DNA of 10,726 nt from Gammaproteobacteria bacterium (GTDB lineage Bacteria > Pseudomonadota > Gammaproteobacteria > Granulosicoccales > Granulosicoccaceae): positions 1 through 10,726 of the forward strand of contig JAHQVR010000277.1 of NCBI GenBank assembly GCA_019634245.1, written 5' to 3'. Below, in pieces: positions 3,411 to 10,704 of this stretch. Both the position numbers and the translations under genes were made by a program. The notes beneath the pieces were generated by a model. The model searched no databases and was not told where the DNA came from. It saw only the letters and a list, made by a program, of their open reading frames with translations. How positions within the stretch are numbered: position 1 is the first letter of the stretch; the number at the start of each line of letters is the position of its first letter.

Positions 3411-3487
3411 GATGCAGTCGCTGTAACGAGTCTTAACAGGAAACGCCAATGCCTTTCTGTTAATTCAAGCTTTACATGGAAAAGATT

Positions 3488-5491
3488 ATGAAGAGACTAC
3501 ATCGACATCGCGCATTACTACTCATATCCATCTCGGTTCTGATGAGTGCGTGTTCGCAGGAAGGAGTGCCACTGTTTAAAGTGGAAATAGCGGAATCTGA
3601 AGAGGCATCCGCTGAAGTGACAAATGAAGTACCAACTACTGCTATCGCTGAAGGAGAAGCTGAGCAGGCTGTTGGAATTGACTCAGAGGGTAGCGGTCCA
3701 TCTTTGGGTGCTGCCATAGACAGTGCATTAATCGATGAAGCCGCATCTGAAATGCCGCCTGAAACTGACTCAACAAACTCAGAGGAATCGTCTCCAGACG
3801 AATCATCTACTGACGAGTCGTCTACAGAGGAGTCATCTACCACCTCGTCCGAAGAATCAACTGTCGTCGATATGACAATTAATGAAGACTATGTGACTGA
3901 TCTGGATACGGTTGAAGAAGTGTCTCGATTTTTCATGCAAGCCGGCTTTGGCGCGACCATGCCTGATATCGAATCTTGGGTGGGTAAAAACGCCAGTCAA
4001 TGGATGTCTGATCAATTTAGCAAAGGAAGAGGGCGTAGTTACGTAAAGGGGATTGAACTTGCATTCCCGGGCAATCTTACCCCGAGCGGCCGCCCGGCAT
4101 CGCAGTTATTCTGGCAGTCCATGATTAAAGACAATGATCAGTTACGTAACCGTATGGTCTATGCCTTGTCGCAAATTATCGTTGCGTCAGATGTTGATAT
4201 AGGGAAAAACGGTTCTTTCCGTATGGCCTATTACGTGGACTTGCTCGATAAGCATGCCTTTGGCAACTACCGAGATCTGCTGTACGACATTACACACTCG
4301 CCAATGATGGCAAAGTACCTTACCTATTTAAGAAATCGAAAAGCCAATGAGCGTACTGGTCGAGAACCAGATGAAAATTACGCCCGAGAGATTATGCAGT
4401 TGTTCAGCATTGGATTAATTCAATTGAATCTGGATGGTACTCCGAAGCTGGATGCAAATGGCAGCACAATTGAAACGTACACCAACGATGATGTGGTGGG
4501 TTTGTCTCGTGTATTCACTGGTTTGTCATATAACCGTTCGGAATTTTTCTCGAAAAATACCATTCCGGATGAAATGAAAGCTTTAAAAATGTTTGAAGAC
4601 CAGCACTCGGAAAAGGAAAAAGCGTTTCTTGGTACGGTGATACCTGCAGGAACATCAGGTAAGGACAGTATCAACATTGCCATCGATACATTGTTCAACC
4701 ATCCCAATGTGGCGCCATTTATTGCTCGACAGCTCATTCAGCGGTTTACTGAATCAGCGCCATCGCCAGAATACGTGAGGCGCGTTGCGACAGCATTCGA
4801 GTCAGGTACATTTTTATCTGAAGATGGTACGGCGTTTGGCAGTGGCTCACGTGGTGATTTAACAGCAACTATTGCTGCCATTTTGCTCGATGCTTCTGCG
4901 CACATTGAACCGGCGGGCGCTGCTGATTTGACTGCCGGTAAAGTGCGAGAGCCAGTGTTGCGCTTTGTTCAAATGCTTCGTGCATTCGATGCTAAACCGG
5001 TGGACATAATCAGTCTTGAACGATCTCTTTACGATACATCCAGTGCGACAGAAAAGCTCGCTCAGCATCCAATGCGCCCTCGATCGGTGTTTAACTTTTA
5101 TCGTCCAGGCTTTGTAGCACCTAATTCGAATTCAGGAGAGGCTGGTCTTACCACACCGGAATTGCAAATCGTTAATGAAGGCAGTGCACTGGGCTTTTTG
5201 AACTTTATTACCAAGTACGCGGTACAACGTTCCAAAAATCCTGGTTCCGAACCGTCTTTGGTACCTGACTACAACGCGGCCGTACAGTTGGCTAACAACC
5301 CTGAGTCGCTTGTGTCTTATCTCAACACGTTACTGACTGGCGGTGCGCTCAGTGATTTTGATGCAGTTCGAATAGAGGAGATAGTGAACAGTATTGTTAT
5401 AGAAGAAAAGAGTGAACAAAATGATCGATTGTCCCGTGTGTACGCTGCTGTTGTGGCTGTGATGGTAAATAGTGCAAATGCAACGCTTTAG
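3488..5491 (+). CDS. DUF1800 family lipoprotein
   Basis: The product has 667 residues. It starts with a lipoprotein signal peptide: basic residues (MKRLHRHR), a hydrophobic stretch, then the lipobox LMSAC with the lipidated Cys22. The mature protein should be membrane-anchored, on the periplasmic or outer surface. An acidic Ser/Thr/Glu-rich linker of about 110 residues follows, containing pentapeptide repeats of EESS/DESS type. The DUF1800 (PF08811) domain starts near residue 145 (VSRFFMQAGFGA) and runs to the end. It shows RNRMVYALSQIIVAS, YRDLLYDITHSPMMAKYL and the hallmark ENYAREIMQLFSIG. DUF1800 has no established biochemical function, but it is repeatedly found beside DUF1501 genes, as here. 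I prefer the ATG at 3488 to the in-frame ATG at 3476, because GGAAAAG lies just upstream of 3488 and the signal peptide then begins normally. The 135-bp gap to the next gene contains no terminator, so co-transcription is likely. Confidence 0.9.
   Translation: MKRLHRHRALLLISISVLMSACSQEGVPLFKVEIAESEEASAEVTNEVPTTAIAEGEAEQAVGIDSEGSGPSLGAAIDSALIDEAASEMPPETDSTNSEESSPDESSTDESSTEESSTTSSEESTVVDMTINEDYVTDLDTVEEVSRFFMQAGFGATMPDIESWVGKNASQWMSDQFSKGRGRSYVKGIELAFPGNLTPSGRPASQLFWQSMIKDNDQLRNRMVYALSQIIVASDVDIGKNGSFRMAYYVDLLDKHAFGNYRDLLYDITHSPMMAKYLTYLRNRKANERTGREPDENYAREIMQLFSIGLIQLNLDGTPKLDANGSTIETYTNDDVVGLSRVFTGLSYNRSEFFSKNTIPDEMKALKMFEDQHSEKEKAFLGTVIPAGTSGKDSINIAIDTLFNHPNVAPFIARQLIQRFTESAPSPEYVRRVATAFESGTFLSEDGTAFGSGSRGDLTATIAAILLDASAHIEPAGAADLTAGKVREPVLRFVQMLRAFDAKPVDIISLERSLYDTSSATEKLAQHPMRPRSVFNFYRPGFVAPNSNSGEAGLTTPELQIVNEGSALGFLNFITKYAVQRSKNPGSEPSLVPDYNAAVQLANNPESLVSYLNTLLTGGALSDFDAVRIEEIVNSIVIEEKSEQNDRLSRVYAAVVAVMVNSANATL
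3783..3842 (+). repeat. In-frame 15-bp tandem repeat encoding an acidic Ser-rich linker
   Basis: Four successive imperfect 15-bp units encode SEESS, PDESS, TDESS and TEESS, inside a longer Glu/Ser/Thr-rich stretch of the DUF1800 lipoprotein. The core alternates GAATC or GAGTC with TCGTCT or TCATCT, so the copies differ mainly at silent third positions. That indicates selection on the peptide or an old expansion. It probably works as a flexible, negatively charged spacer between the lipid anchor and the folded domain. Confidence 0.75.
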
Positions 5492-5626: not shown

Positions 5627-7089
5627 ATGAAAAATAAAATCAACAATACTCACTGGGCAGAGATTCACTCAACTGAAAGACGACAATTTGTTAAATGTGC
5701 CGCCGCAGCCGGTTTGGTTGGGTCGTCTGCCTTTGTGCACGGCTTTGGTGCCAAAAGTGCCATTGCTGCTGAAACGGGCGGATACAAAGCCTTGGTTTGC
5801 ATCAATTTAAAAGGGGGGATGGACCACGCCGACACCTTGTTTCCGTTTGATCAGAACGAATTCAATCAGATGGCATCGGCCAGGCAGGAGTTGCTTAGAA
5901 GTTATAATTTTGAGAGTGCGGATTCATCCCGAAACCGTCAGAATCTTTTAAGAATCGGGCAAACAGGCCAAACGTTCTCGGGTGGCCGTGCTTTTGCACT
6001 ACCTGCAGAGTTGTCAGAGCTACGCGACATGTTCAACGATGGCGATGCTTCAATTGTCGCTAATGTTGGGCCGCTGATTGAACCAACCAATCGCTTGTCG
6101 ATGGAATCGGGTGGGCTTATTCCAGAGCGCTTGTTTTCACACAACGACCAACAGTCCACGTGGCAATCACTGTCAACAGAAGGCGCAAGGCTTGGATGGG
6201 GGGGGGATTTGTTGAGGCCGCACTGGCGAGTAACCCGACGGCGAATGCGTTGTTTGCCGGTTTAACTGCCTCCGGTACTGATGTTTTTCTTGCCAGCCGC
6301 AGTACACCGCAATTTCGCTTGCCGGTTAGTGGTGGCAAAGATGAAATAGCCATTATTGAGAAACGCTACTTGCTTGGATGGAACAGCCGCTTTGATACAG
6401 CCAGACAACTTTTCCGAGAGTATTTAACCAGTGCAGATCCGTTTGAGAATAATGTCATGAGGCAGGATACGACGCATGCAACGTCAAGCGGTATACAAAA
6501 GCGCGAAGAGTATCAAACCTACCTTGATGCTTCGTCACCACTTCCGACTCCATTTCCACCCACAAGGCTAGGTAGCCAGCTTGCGGCTGTTGCCAGAACC
6601 ATTGGTTTGAGAAATGTTCTGGGTATTCCGAGACAGGTTTTCTATGTCACCCTGGGTGGGTTCGATACGCACTCTTCACAATCTGTCGATCTACCTGAAA
6701 AGCATCGCGAGTTGTCGAGTGCATTAAGCGCATTCAAGCAAGCGATGATTGAAATGAATGCCTGGGATGACGTTACCGCTTTTACCATGTCAGACTTTGG
6801 TCGAACGCTGTCAGACAATGGTAATGGAACCGATCATGGCTGGGGGTCGCATCACTTTGTTGTTGGTGGCGGAATCAATGGTGGACAAATCATTGGTGAT
6901 GTTCCGGAGCCCGAGCCCGATTCACCCCGGTTTACGAAAAAGCGTGCAAGGATGATCCCAACCATATCAGTTGAACAGTATGCCGCAAGTCTGGGGTCGT
7001 GGTTTGGTTTGAACGATGAGGAATTGAATGGTTTGTTTCCCAACCGCGGTCGATTCGATACAGGTGCGGTCACTTTATTCAATGGGTAA
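5627..7089 (+). pseudogene. DUF1501 family Tat-exported protein, frame broken at a G9 tract
   Basis: Two overlapping frames together make one DUF1501 (PF07394) protein. The first (5627-6265) starts at ATG 5627 after AAAGAGAAAA. It has a twin-arginine signal (ERRQFVK at residues 17-23, hydrophobic core, cleavage probably near AIAAET), then the LKGGMDHADTLFP motif and LFSHNDQQSTWQS. The second (used from about 6199 to 7089) continues FVEAALASNPTANALF and ends with the conserved MSDFGRTLSDNGNGTDHGWG, HHFVVGGGINGGQIIGD and LGSWFGL. Homology passes from one frame to the other at nine G (6198-6206). Without correction the first frame stops at 6263-6265, after 212 residues. Adding one G gives GWGGGFVEAAL and 487 codons, a normal family length. 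DUF1501 is related to the alkaline phosphatase/sulfatase fold; its substrate is unknown. It follows the DUF1800 lipoprotein gene, so both products act outside the cytoplasm. Whether this is a mutation, slippage-tolerant expression or a sequencing error cannot be decided here. Confidence 0.85.
6198..6206 (+). other. G9 homopolymer at the DUF1501 frameshift
   Basis: Nine consecutive G follow AT in the codons TGG GGG GGG GAT of the upstream frame. The downstream frame reads ATG GGG GGG GGA TTT across the same bases. Joining the two homologous halves needs a net -1 shift of the reader, or one inserted G. Long G runs are prone to polymerase slippage, RNA polymerase slippage and base-calling error. 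Confidence 0.85.
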
Positions 7090-8192: not shown

Positions 8193-8224
8193 GTGATCTT
8201 AGTGACAATGTCATTAAGCATCAC
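8193..8224. terminator. Long hairpin between convergent transporter genes, possible bidirectional terminator
   Basis: GTGAT (8193-8197) plus CTTAGTGACA (8198-8207) pairs with TGTCATTAAG (8209-8218), a bulged C, and ATCAC (8220-8224). The stem is about 14 bp with one G-U pair and a tiny loop. The minus-strand gene's stop codon (8221-8223) lies inside the stem. Neither side has a clear T-run, so termination strength is uncertain, but the position between convergent genes is right. A second small palindrome, GTGGCCAC, lies at about 8175-8182. Confidence 0.5.
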
Positions 8225-9105
8225 GATTGTGCAGACTTTTCCAGTTGTCTTTCCCTAACGGCAACATAGCAAGCTCCGGAAAAAATAATGGTCGCGCCTA
8301 TAAAGGTGTAAACGCTGACATATTCGCCGAAGAGCAAATAGCCTAAACTTGCGCTCCAAATAATTTTTGCAAAGTCAAACGGTAGTACGATTGATGTTTC
8401 CGCATAGGCAAATGCCTTTGCAAGCAACAATTGACCGAGCGTGCCGGTGCCGGCTGCGAAGAGCAGCCATCCCCATTGTAAACCTTGTGGCCATTTCCAG
8501 AAAAAAATAGCCGGTATCAGGGACAGAATTGATAAAAAGATTGTGACATAAGCCGTAATGGTAAGTGGTGAATCAGTGTTGGAGAGGTGCTTGATGACGA
8601 TCATGGTAAGGGCCCAGATTGAGGCTGAACCCAACACCAGTAGGGCACCTAATTCGATGGGCTGGATACCAGGTCGAAGAATGATTAATACACCGGTAAA
8701 CCCAATAATAATTGCCATCCATCGTCTCAGCCTGACTTTCTCTCCCAGAAATAGTACTGCCATGACGGTTGCAAATAATGGCGCGGTGAAACTGAGTGCC
8801 TGAACTGTTGCCAGTTGAGTAATTGACAGCGCATAAAAGAACATGAGCATCGCAAAAACATTTAATCCTGCGCGAAGCAGATGCCACCGCAAATTGTTTG
8901 TTATCAGTAACTCAGCGCCGTTCTTGAGCATGAGTGGCAAGAAGAAAATGAGTGCCAAAAAATTGCGAAAGAATGCGATTTCGAATGGGTGAAGCTCTGC
9001 GCTCAAGTATCGAACACAAACATGCATGAGGGAAAAGAGAATGGTAGAGCCCAGCATGGCAGCACAACCCAGCAAGACGCTTTTCCCATGAACGGGATTA
9101 GTCAT
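8221..9105 (-). CDS. EamA/DMT-family membrane transporter (second of a convergent pair)
   Basis: The 294-residue product has about ten membrane helices in two EamA (PF00892) halves. The first runs from GCAAMLGSTILFSLMHVCVRYL to WMAIIIGFTGVLIILRPG, including FYALSITQLATVQALSFTAP and FLGEKVRLRRW. The second runs from LGALLVLGSASIWALTMIVI to FIGATIIFSGACYVAVRERQ, including AYAETSIVLPFDFAKIIWSA and LLFGEYVS. Both halves end in the typical LGE/FGE turn before a final helix. The architecture resembles members annotated as S-adenosylmethionine or riboflavin transporters, but nothing visible fixes the substrate. The ATG (9103-9105 on this strand) has only a poor ribosome-binding site upstream (GAGTAAAACTACAG). 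It runs convergently with the other DMT gene (59 bp between stops) and divergently from the radical SAM gene. Confidence 0.9.
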   Translation of the reverse strand: MTNPVHGKSVLLGCAAMLGSTILFSLMHVCVRYLSAELHPFEIAFFRNFLALIFFLPLMLKNGAELLITNNLRWHLLRAGLNVFAMLMFFYALSITQLATVQALSFTAPLFATVMAVLFLGEKVRLRRWMAIIIGFTGVLIILRPGIQPIELGALLVLGSASIWALTMIVIKHLSNTDSPLTITAYVTIFLSILSLIPAIFFWKWPQGLQWGWLLFAAGTGTLGQLLLAKAFAYAETSIVLPFDFAKIIWSASLGYLLFGEYVSVYTFIGATIIFSGACYVAVRERQLEKSAQS

Positions 9106-9339
9106 GCTGTAGTTTTACTCATCCGGGAAATGCGTCGCGCTCAAAAGAAATTACCGCTTAGGGGTGAATGCCACCGCAGCGACAGTAAACCGGTTCAGCT
9201 CGATAAGCTACCGCTGGTGGGTGACACTATCACAAAGTGGGAATTGCTTCATCTGGCAAAGCGATGGCCGGCTGACCGTCTGCACCCATGCAAGGCCCGC
9301 CTACAAGTGTCACTCGATAGACATTTTGTCCATTGTCGC
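9106..9339. other. Intergenic stretch with no supported gene
   Basis: Between the minus-strand transporter and the radical SAM promoter I see no convincing gene, RNA or terminator. One plus-strand frame stays open across it to 9357, but it begins inside the transporter gene, has no ribosome-binding site and encodes no recognisable domain. The stretch probably carries the transporter's promoter on the minus strand, although I found no good -35/-10 pair. Confidence 0.5.
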
Positions 9340-9367
9340 TTGCAATTAGCCGTGTAAACATTATACT
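9340..9367 (+). promoter_or_regulatory. Sigma-70 promoter of the radical SAM gene
   Basis: TTGCAA (9340-9345, four of six) is followed after 16 bases by TATACT (9362-9367, five of six). Transcription would begin near 9374, inside the LexA box that follows, leaving a leader of about 20 nt with the AGGGGG ribosome-binding site. Overlap of the -10 and start with the LexA box is the classic arrangement for repression. Confidence 0.6.
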
Positions 9368-9383
9368 GTATATATAAACAGTA
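9364..9383. promoter_or_regulatory. LexA (SOS) box
   Basis: TACTGTATATATAAACAGTA matches the E. coli LexA consensus (taCTGT, eight AT-rich bases, ACAGta) at 19 of 20 positions, including both CTGT and ACAG half-sites at exact spacing. It overlaps the -10 element and predicted start of the radical SAM gene and ends 13 bases before its GTG. On this evidence the gene should be repressed by LexA and induced by DNA damage. The organism's LexA is not in the window, so its specificity is assumed to be of the gammaproteobacterial type. Confidence 0.88.
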
Positions 9384-9396
9384 TTCAGGGGGCTTA

Positions 9397-10704
9397 GTGC
9401 ATAGAGCGCGCACCAGAAAGGGCCGCGGGGCTGTCAGCAACGAATCTGGCCGGTTCGAAGTCCATACACTTCACCCTGTGGATGACGGTTGGCACACTAA
9501 CGAGTCGCAAACTGATAGTTACCATACTGACGGTTCGCCGAGTAGCAACTGCCCAGGGAGTGCTGGCCAATTCAAAAGCAGCCAAATCAAAGGCAGCCAA
9601 AGCAGTGGCTACCAAAGTGTCCCCACCGAGAATGGGTATGAAGACGTCTGGTCAATTACGCAGCGTCTCAAAACCGAGTGGCAGGAAGATAAAAGTAAAA
9701 CCATCATTACTCGAAATCGCTCTCCTGATATTCACTTCGATCGATCTTTGAATCCATACCGTGGTTGTGAACATGGATGCATATACTGCTTTGCCAGACC
9801 CACACACAGTTGGCTTGGACACTCAGCAGGGCTCGATTTTGAAACGAAGCTGTACGCTAAACTAGATGCTGCCACCTTACTGAAACGGGAGTTGGCCAAA
9901 CCGGGATACCAATGCGAACCGATTGCCATCGGTGTGAATACCGATGCTTATCAACCTCTGGAACGTAAATTAAAACTAACTCGACAAGTGCTTAGTGTGT
10001 TAAGTGAGGCGCGTCATCCGGCTTATCTGATTACGAAGTCCTCGTTGATAGAGCGTGATATAGACATCCTCAAGGATATGTCACGGCAGAATCTTGTTTC
10101 TGCTTGCGTGTCGATTACAACGCTAAACCCAAGATTAGCCAGAAAACTAGAACCAAGAGCAACATCACCTCATAGGCGATTAAAAATTCTGGAAAACTTA
10201 TCCAAGGCAGGCATTCCCACGCGTGTTTCTATCTCGCCTGTAATACCAGCATTAAACGAGGAAGAAATAGACAACATTGTTGCCGCTGCTGCTGATGCCG
10301 GTGCGGTTGCAGCTTATGCCATTGCGCTTAGATTACCTCATGAGTTGCAAACGCTTTTCCCAGAATGGTTGCAGCAACACTATCCATTGCGTGCAGCGCG
10401 CGTATTAAAAGCCATTCGGTCAATGCGAAACGACCGGTTGAACAACGCAGAATTTGGGCATCGTATGGTCGGTGCCGGTCCTCGTGCCGACATTATTCAA
10501 ACTCGGTTCCAGCTAGCGTGCAAGCGAGCGAATATTGCTGTGGGGCGCGATTTTGAGTTAAATAAGGCGTTGTTTCAAGCTCCTGTTTTATCTGAGAAAG
10601 TGGCTGAGTCAACCGAATCGGCCCAGTCGACCCAGTCGACCCAGTCGACTAATAAGGCAAATAATCAAAGCCCCAAGCGTCAAATGCAGCTGTTTGCTGA
10701 CTGA
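9397..10704 (+). CDS. PA0069-family radical SAM protein, SOS-controlled, with C-terminal clamp-like motif
   Basis: Radical SAM enzymes use a 4Fe-4S cluster to split S-adenosylmethionine and start radical chemistry; this branch is distantly related to spore photoproduct lyase (SplB). The 435-residue product has the cluster motif CEHGCIYC (Cys124, Cys128, Cys131) inside SLNPYRGCEHGCIYCFARPT. It is followed by GLDFETKLYAK, IAIGVNTDAYQPLER, YLITKSSLIERD, SITTLNPRLARKLEPRA, VSISPVIPALNEEE and FGHRMVGAGPRAD, all typical of the PA0069 family. The GTG start at 9397 is supported by AGGGGG four bases upstream and by the family N-terminus RGRGAVSNESGRFE immediately after. Residues 33-85 form an unusual Ser/Gln/Gly/Asn-rich insert with pentapeptide repeats. 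Residues about 398-428 form a flexible Ser/Thr/Gln tail leading to KRQMQLFAD, whose QMQLF resembles a sliding-clamp binding motif. A LexA box overlaps the promoter. The substrate is unknown; a DNA-repair role is inference. Confidence 0.9.
   Translation: MHRARTRKGRGAVSNESGRFEVHTLHPVDDGWHTNESQTDSYHTDGSPSSNCPGSAGQFKSSQIKGSQSSGYQSVPTENGYEDVWSITQRLKTEWQEDKSKTIITRNRSPDIHFDRSLNPYRGCEHGCIYCFARPTHSWLGHSAGLDFETKLYAKLDAATLLKRELAKPGYQCEPIAIGVNTDAYQPLERKLKLTRQVLSVLSEARHPAYLITKSSLIERDIDILKDMSRQNLVSACVSITTLNPRLARKLEPRATSPHRRLKILENLSKAGIPTRVSISPVIPALNEEEIDNIVAAAADAGAVAAYAIALRLPHELQTLFPEWLQQHYPLRAARVLKAIRSMRNDRLNNAEFGHRMVGAGPRADIIQTRFQLACKRANIAVGRDFELNKALFQAPVLSEKVAESTESAQSTQSTQSTNKANNQSPKRQMQLFAD
9562..9621 (+). 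repeat. In-frame 15-bp repeat in the N-terminal insert of the radical SAM protein
   Basis: Four imperfect 15-bp units encode AGQFK, SSQIK, GSQSS and GYQSV (residues 56-75). The invariant Gln codon is CAA, and units two and three share GCAGCCAAA. The repeat lies within the low-complexity insert between the conserved N-terminal patch and the catalytic domain. Confidence 0.6.
10622..10648 (+). repeat. Three perfect copies of a 9-bp unit in the C-terminal tail
   Basis: CCCAGTCGA occurs three times without a mismatch and encodes QST-type tripeptides in the tail of the radical SAM protein. Degenerate copies precede it (AGTCAACCGAATCGG). Identity at silent positions suggests recent slippage, and copy number could vary between strains without breaking the frame. 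Confidence 0.8.

Follow-up and report, generated by a model that had tools for sequence, protein, structure and literature searches.

What controls the radical S-adenosylmethionine (SAM) gene at one end of contig JAHQVR010000277.1, and what might its product do? The contig comes from a gammaproteobacterium of the family Granulosicoccaceae (assembly GCA_019634245.1), and its 10,726 nucleotides are referred to here as the window, which ends 22 bases past the gene. A near-perfect binding site for LexA, the repressor of the SOS response to DNA damage, overlaps the predicted promoter. Our analysis indicates that the gene probably encodes a LexA-repressed, damage-induced radical SAM enzyme that acts on a DNA lesion by chemistry unlike that of spore photoproduct lyase.

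The box TACTGTATATATAAACAGTA differs from the SOS consensus TACTGTATATATATACAGTA at a single position, and it is the sole site in the window with three or fewer mismatches to that consensus. A chance origin was rejected on the basis of dinucleotide shuffles, none of 200 of which produced a match within three mismatches, together with a base-composition estimate of 1.8e-8 for a 19-of-20 match within the 291-base intergenic region. The exact core CTGT-N8-ACAG occupies positions 9366-9381. When one core mismatch is allowed, four sites are present in the window compared to 4.1 expected, and therefore the other three can be attributed to chance. On a matrix derived from 23 lexA-promoter boxes, the box scores 27.7 bits of a maximum of 30.4. 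A scan of positions 9100-9420 returned one sigma-70-like site with a 9/12 match, compared to 0.3 expected in shuffled sequences. Because its TATACT element ends at 9367 and the box starts at 9364, the box runs over part of the −10 element and over the presumed start site. An earlier note on this DNA, made from the sequence alone, had described this arrangement along with an AGGGGG ribosome-binding site; the box lies where it was placed, and the overlap and the ribosome-binding site are both borne out (Table 1).

The same note had assigned the gene to the PA0069 family, and this assignment holds, with an NF033668 score above the curated cut-off of 360 bits. The second-best family, Rv2578c (NF038135), scores 209.5 bits, which is below its cut-off of 430. 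The GTG start at 9397 is credible because the open reading frame (ORF) opens with the RKGRGA..N..GRFE stretch seen in an alignment of 25 homologues. The protein shares with the PA0069 family both this N-terminal RKGRGA stretch and the cluster motif, and its place in the radical SAM superfamily is supported by the CX3CX2C motif, the Pfam match (PF04055) and the fold matches described below. The cluster cysteines C124, C128 and C131 are kept in 95 of 95 aligned proteins. At expect values up to 0.001, Pfam reports Radical_SAM only and no photolyase domain that binds flavin adenine dinucleotide, and thus the label ‘DNA repair photolyase’ used by some sources is not borne out by the domain make-up. 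The window protein differs from its relatives in a low-complexity insert of ~45-50 residues that follows the N-terminal DDGW and in a tail rich in Gln, Ser and Thr. In many of the 25 aligned homologues, these two segments are reduced in length or lacking. Tandem repeats at 9566-9601 and 10607-10649 (15-base and 9-base units) lie within this insert and tail.

Table 1. Features of the window, with those of the radical SAM locus given first.
Feature	Position	Strand	Remarks
LexA (SOS) box TACTGTATATATAAACAGTA	9364..9383	+	19/20 vs consensus
Sigma-70-like promoter TTGCAA-16-TATACT	9340..9367	+	Consensus match only
Ribosome-binding site AGGGGG	9387..9392	+	Read directly; 4 bases ahead of GTG (9397-9399)
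PA0069-family radical SAM protein, 435 amino acids	9397..10704	+	NF033668 459.7 bits; Pfam Radical_SAM
EamA transporter gene	8221..9105	-	Divergent; 258 bases from box; not counted in the unit
DUF1800 gene	3476-5491		Upstream of DUF1501 gene
DUF1501 gene	5627-7089		Overlapping frames 5627-6265 and 6160-7089

LexA sites were sought in the ~400 bases upstream of the match in 80 named loci. These are the top scorers among at least 594 loci encoding a relative, and so an uneven sample. Sorted by record title, they comprise 17 betaproteobacterial, 13 gammaproteobacterial and four Xanthomonadales-type loci, with the remaining 46 taken as alphaproteobacterial and one ‘Proteobacteria bacterium’ (L005) grouped with the gammaproteobacteria. 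The exact CTGT-N8-ACAG is present in 16 of the 17 betaproteobacterial loci, and the other (L011) has TACTGATCATATATACAGTA, with one core mismatch. Nearly all alphaproteobacterial loci (45/46) carry the alpha-type LexA site GTTC-N7-GTTC. For the fitting motif, the background in the remainder of the named loci is 0.002 to 0.005 expected per region. Among the gammaproteobacterial loci, two of 13 have the exact box, and L005 bears the alpha-type site. Nearest to the window among the named loci are L001 and L003, both from Granulosicoccaceae and both with exact boxes, and L002, whose TACTGAATATAAATACAGCA has one core mismatch. The box of Aeromonas caviae (L241) is AACTGTATATATAAACAGTG. We also tried TTAG-N6-TACTA, which we take to be the Xanthomonas-type site, and found none in the four Xanthomonadales-type loci.

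Two records in the alphaproteobacterial set are oddly labelled, L029 as ‘Mycobacterium sp.’ and L069 as ‘Candidatus Marinimicrobia’. In both, the gene has an alpha-type LexA site, and the records are perhaps mislabelled or contaminated. Contigs in a viral collection yielded three relatives, one of them long (L242). This entry holds a near-complete PA0069-family gene with 46% identity (L242:4001-4993) and no box within 400 bases upstream.

A wider sample was taken from the class of G001, the genome that contains L001, in which 117 of 369 genomes have the family over the cut-off. Upstream regions were examined in 110 of these; the other seven are G001 itself, G069, G080 and G384 (start at a contig end or close to it), G103 (split), G373 and G380. 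The exact box is found in 11 of the 110 regions and is absent from the remaining 346 kb. On the lexA-box matrix, 17 of the 110 regions reach at least 9 bits, compared to three of 1100 control windows. The LexA DNA-binding domain was tested in 79 of the genomes, using a border of 75 bits between strong and weak matches that was set after the scores were seen. A box at 8 bits is present in 16 of 45 genomes with a strong match, in one of 23 with a weak match, and in none of the 11 with no match. We presume that the class may take in betaproteobacteria under the GTDB scheme. The possibility that the boxed genes are simply betaproteobacterial was rejected, since in a FastTree tree with the named loci none of the 110 falls inside the clade of 17 betaproteobacteria (support 0.961), although L207 adjoins it. 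Of the 17 boxed genes, which fall into several tree groups, three branch beside the window gene, five are found near L030 and L059, another four close to the Xanthomonadales-type genes and one close to Aeromonas; one more is next to the betaproteobacteria, and three (L101, L109 and L166) are scattered. The box is therefore patchy outside the alpha- and betaproteobacteria, through losses, gains or both. The upstream scan that the earlier note had proposed therefore favours LexA control in betaproteobacteria and, by way of the alpha-type site, in alphaproteobacteria, with a patchy outcome elsewhere.

At the level of sequence, LexA control of the family is strongly supported, being conserved across two LexA site types and co-occurring with an E. 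coli-like LexA. We infer that LexA binds the window promoter and that DNA damage induces it. Many related bacteria share this arrangement, and on that basis a role for the enzyme in DNA repair is probable. The mechanisms of LexA and of radical SAM enzymes are well established. In an undamaged cell, LexA bound at 9364-9383, over the −10 element and start site, would block transcription. Upon damage, RecA filaments on DNA would trigger self-cleavage of LexA, and the radical SAM enzyme would be made. Its [4Fe-4S] cluster, held by C124, C128 and C131, would then act with SAM to generate a 5′-deoxyadenosyl radical within a barrel like that of spore photoproduct lyase. The enzyme may direct this radical at a damaged DNA base or nucleotide, either reversing or trimming the damage. 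The hydrogen-return step would differ from that of spore photoproduct lyase because no cysteine donor is conserved.

The resemblance to spore photoproduct lyase emerged from structure modelling. A first model (25 rows; predicted local distance difference test score 67.3) gave way to a second one (95 rows; 78.6), for which this lyase leads in both Foldseek and VIA-align, suggesting that the window protein adopts its fold even though identity to the lyase (4fhc and kin) is 10%. A true spore photoproduct lyase would repair 5-thyminyl-5,6-dihydrothymine in dried or ultraviolet-exposed cells, with the SOS box merely setting the timing. Such a role would suit the closest solved fold and has been proposed for splB in alpha- and betaproteobacteria (PMC3323433). 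However, no cysteine beyond the cluster exceeds 62% conservation among the 95 aligned proteins, and no further cysteine exists in the core of 11 of them or in the whole protein of seven. In addition, no spore photoproduct lyase family is among the eight NCBIfam matches at expect values up to 10, in a library that presumably includes models for it. We take C140 to be the hydrogen donor of spore photoproduct lyase. It is a residue mutated in solved lyase structures, as far as their titles tell, whereas the PA0069 family offers no conserved candidate for a donor cysteine (the counterpart of C140 was not pinpointed). This identity is accordingly quite unlikely. The distant relation that the earlier note drew to this lyase stands for the fold, but a direct repair of the spore lesion in the way the lyase does it is not supported.

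Several results weigh against a LexA-repressed enzyme that acts on a DNA lesion. Spore photoproduct lyase is ahead of lipoyl synthase by a Z margin of just 1.4 to 1.9 units, and Foldseek ranked the peptide maturase SkfB slightly above it when given the weaker first model. DNA as the substrate class is suggested solely by the modelled fold. On the regulatory side, 11 of the 13 gammaproteobacterial loci and all four Xanthomonadales-type loci are without an exact CTGT-N8-ACAG, and the latter four have none of the sites tried. Most regions in the class sample (93/110) fall below 9 bits and are thus without a box, as are 29 of the 45 genomes with an E. coli-like LexA. A dyad search of 99 unboxed regions returned mainly coding KGRGA pieces, its 40 highest-ranked motifs include no palindrome, and a different operator shared by the unboxed relatives was rejected on this basis. 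Finally, the main texts of Pseudomonas aeruginosa SOS papers, searched by term, mention no such gene. An SOS-controlled enzyme could instead modify a protein or small molecule that the cell requires once damage has occurred. We consider this unlikely, given that the better model favours spore photoproduct lyase in both fold searches, that the SkfB sequence match spans part of the barrel only, and that Pfam finds no domain besides Radical_SAM. It is highly improbable that the box serves another LexA-like or phage repressor or is a chance palindrome. Its AT-rich centre is indeed simple sequence, but the box lies at the same place in betaproteobacterial and some gammaproteobacterial relatives, is replaced by the alpha-type LexA site in alphaproteobacteria, and is tied to an E. 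coli-like LexA.

The neighbouring genes offer a clue to the substrate. ORF clustering of neighbours is noisy in GC-rich DNA, and the one clear lead is RNase HII. By tblastn, 30 of the 46 alphaproteobacterial loci have it downstream on the same strand, and in 26 of these it starts no more than 500 bases from the match end. It is on the other side in one further alphaproteobacterial locus (L006), and L005 likewise has it. In L020, the RNase HII ORF (L020:6104-6811; Pfam) starts 53 bases past the stop codon. None was found in the 17 betaproteobacterial, the other 12 gammaproteobacterial and the four Xanthomonadales-type loci, or within ~1 kb downstream in the 110 class-sample loci. This neighbourhood hints at a link to ribonucleotide or strand repair. 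Tentatively, and with some doubt, we propose that radical SAM enzymes of the PA0069 family serve as general, non-spore repair enzymes of the SOS response, with a chemistry of their own that dispenses with a cysteine hydrogen donor; that they act on a lesion encountered in translesion synthesis or ribonucleotide removal (the gene stands ahead of RNase HII in many alphaproteobacteria); and that LexA control was kept through a change of site type. The ‘general SOS function’ suggested by the earlier note agrees with the near-universal sites in the sampled alpha- and betaproteobacterial loci, but not with the class sample, most of which is without a box.

That note had also mentioned the P. aeruginosa homologue as one listed among LexA-controlled genes. 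The 2006 list of Cirz et al. reportedly includes PA0069, although we found no source that says so. The P. aeruginosa link is backed only second-hand, by PMC8565304, where SOS control of the ‘SplB radical SAM protein (COG1533)’ in P. aeruginosa is referenced to Cirz et al. 2006 and splB/COG1533 is also found in Bacteroidetes SOS networks. For alpha- and betaproteobacteria that have multiple chromosomes, LexA control of splB was predicted and called photoreactivation, whereas it was not observed in the gammaproteobacteria studied (PMC3323433). Elsewhere, SplB-like proteins are placed beside SOS genes (PMC3765255), and a Streptomyces radical SAM gene of unconfirmed family has a LexA site (PMC9380542). 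A Mycobacterium tuberculosis ‘DNA repair photolyase’ with RecA-dependent induction is a possible counterpart in the Rv2578c family (PMC8151990). SplB is among the genes raised by tea polyphenol in Pseudomonas fluorescens, with LexA-dependence not established (PMC5435343). Literature searches pairing PA0069 with LexA, or radical SAM with LexA, SOS regulon and photolyase, gave no match, and PA0069 by name was used just as a chromosome position. In term searches of main texts, ‘radical SAM’ and ‘photolyase’ are absent from PMC8407119, PMC12796719 and PMC6120978, and ‘radical SAM’ is absent from PMC13114513.

The splB/COG1533 regulons of PMC3323433 and PMC8565304 likewise place a spore-photoproduct-lyase-like radical SAM gene behind a LexA site, and the splB of the former is, we infer, the PA0069 family. 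Regulation of such a gene by LexA is thus mostly already known. Unlike the gammaproteobacteria covered in PMC3323433, however, the window, other Granulosicoccaceae (L001 and L003) and Aeromonas caviae (L241) carry the box, as do 15 to 17 of the 110 class-sample genomes outside the betaproteobacterial clade.

Elsewhere in the window, the DUF1501 match is confined to the second of two overlapping frames (6160-7089), and the gene looks to be split by a frameshift, either real or from sequencing. A 15-base tandem repeat at 3780-3840 in the DUF1800 gene codes for a stretch rich in Ser, Asp and Glu.

In the sampled alpha- and betaproteobacterial loci, a LexA site is nearly universal in front of the radical SAM gene. 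The cysteine pattern sets the PA0069 family apart from spore photoproduct lyase and allows the question of its substrate to be put to the test. That the conserved site follows each lineage's LexA in type offers good evidence that damage-inducibility of the enzyme is maintained by selection.
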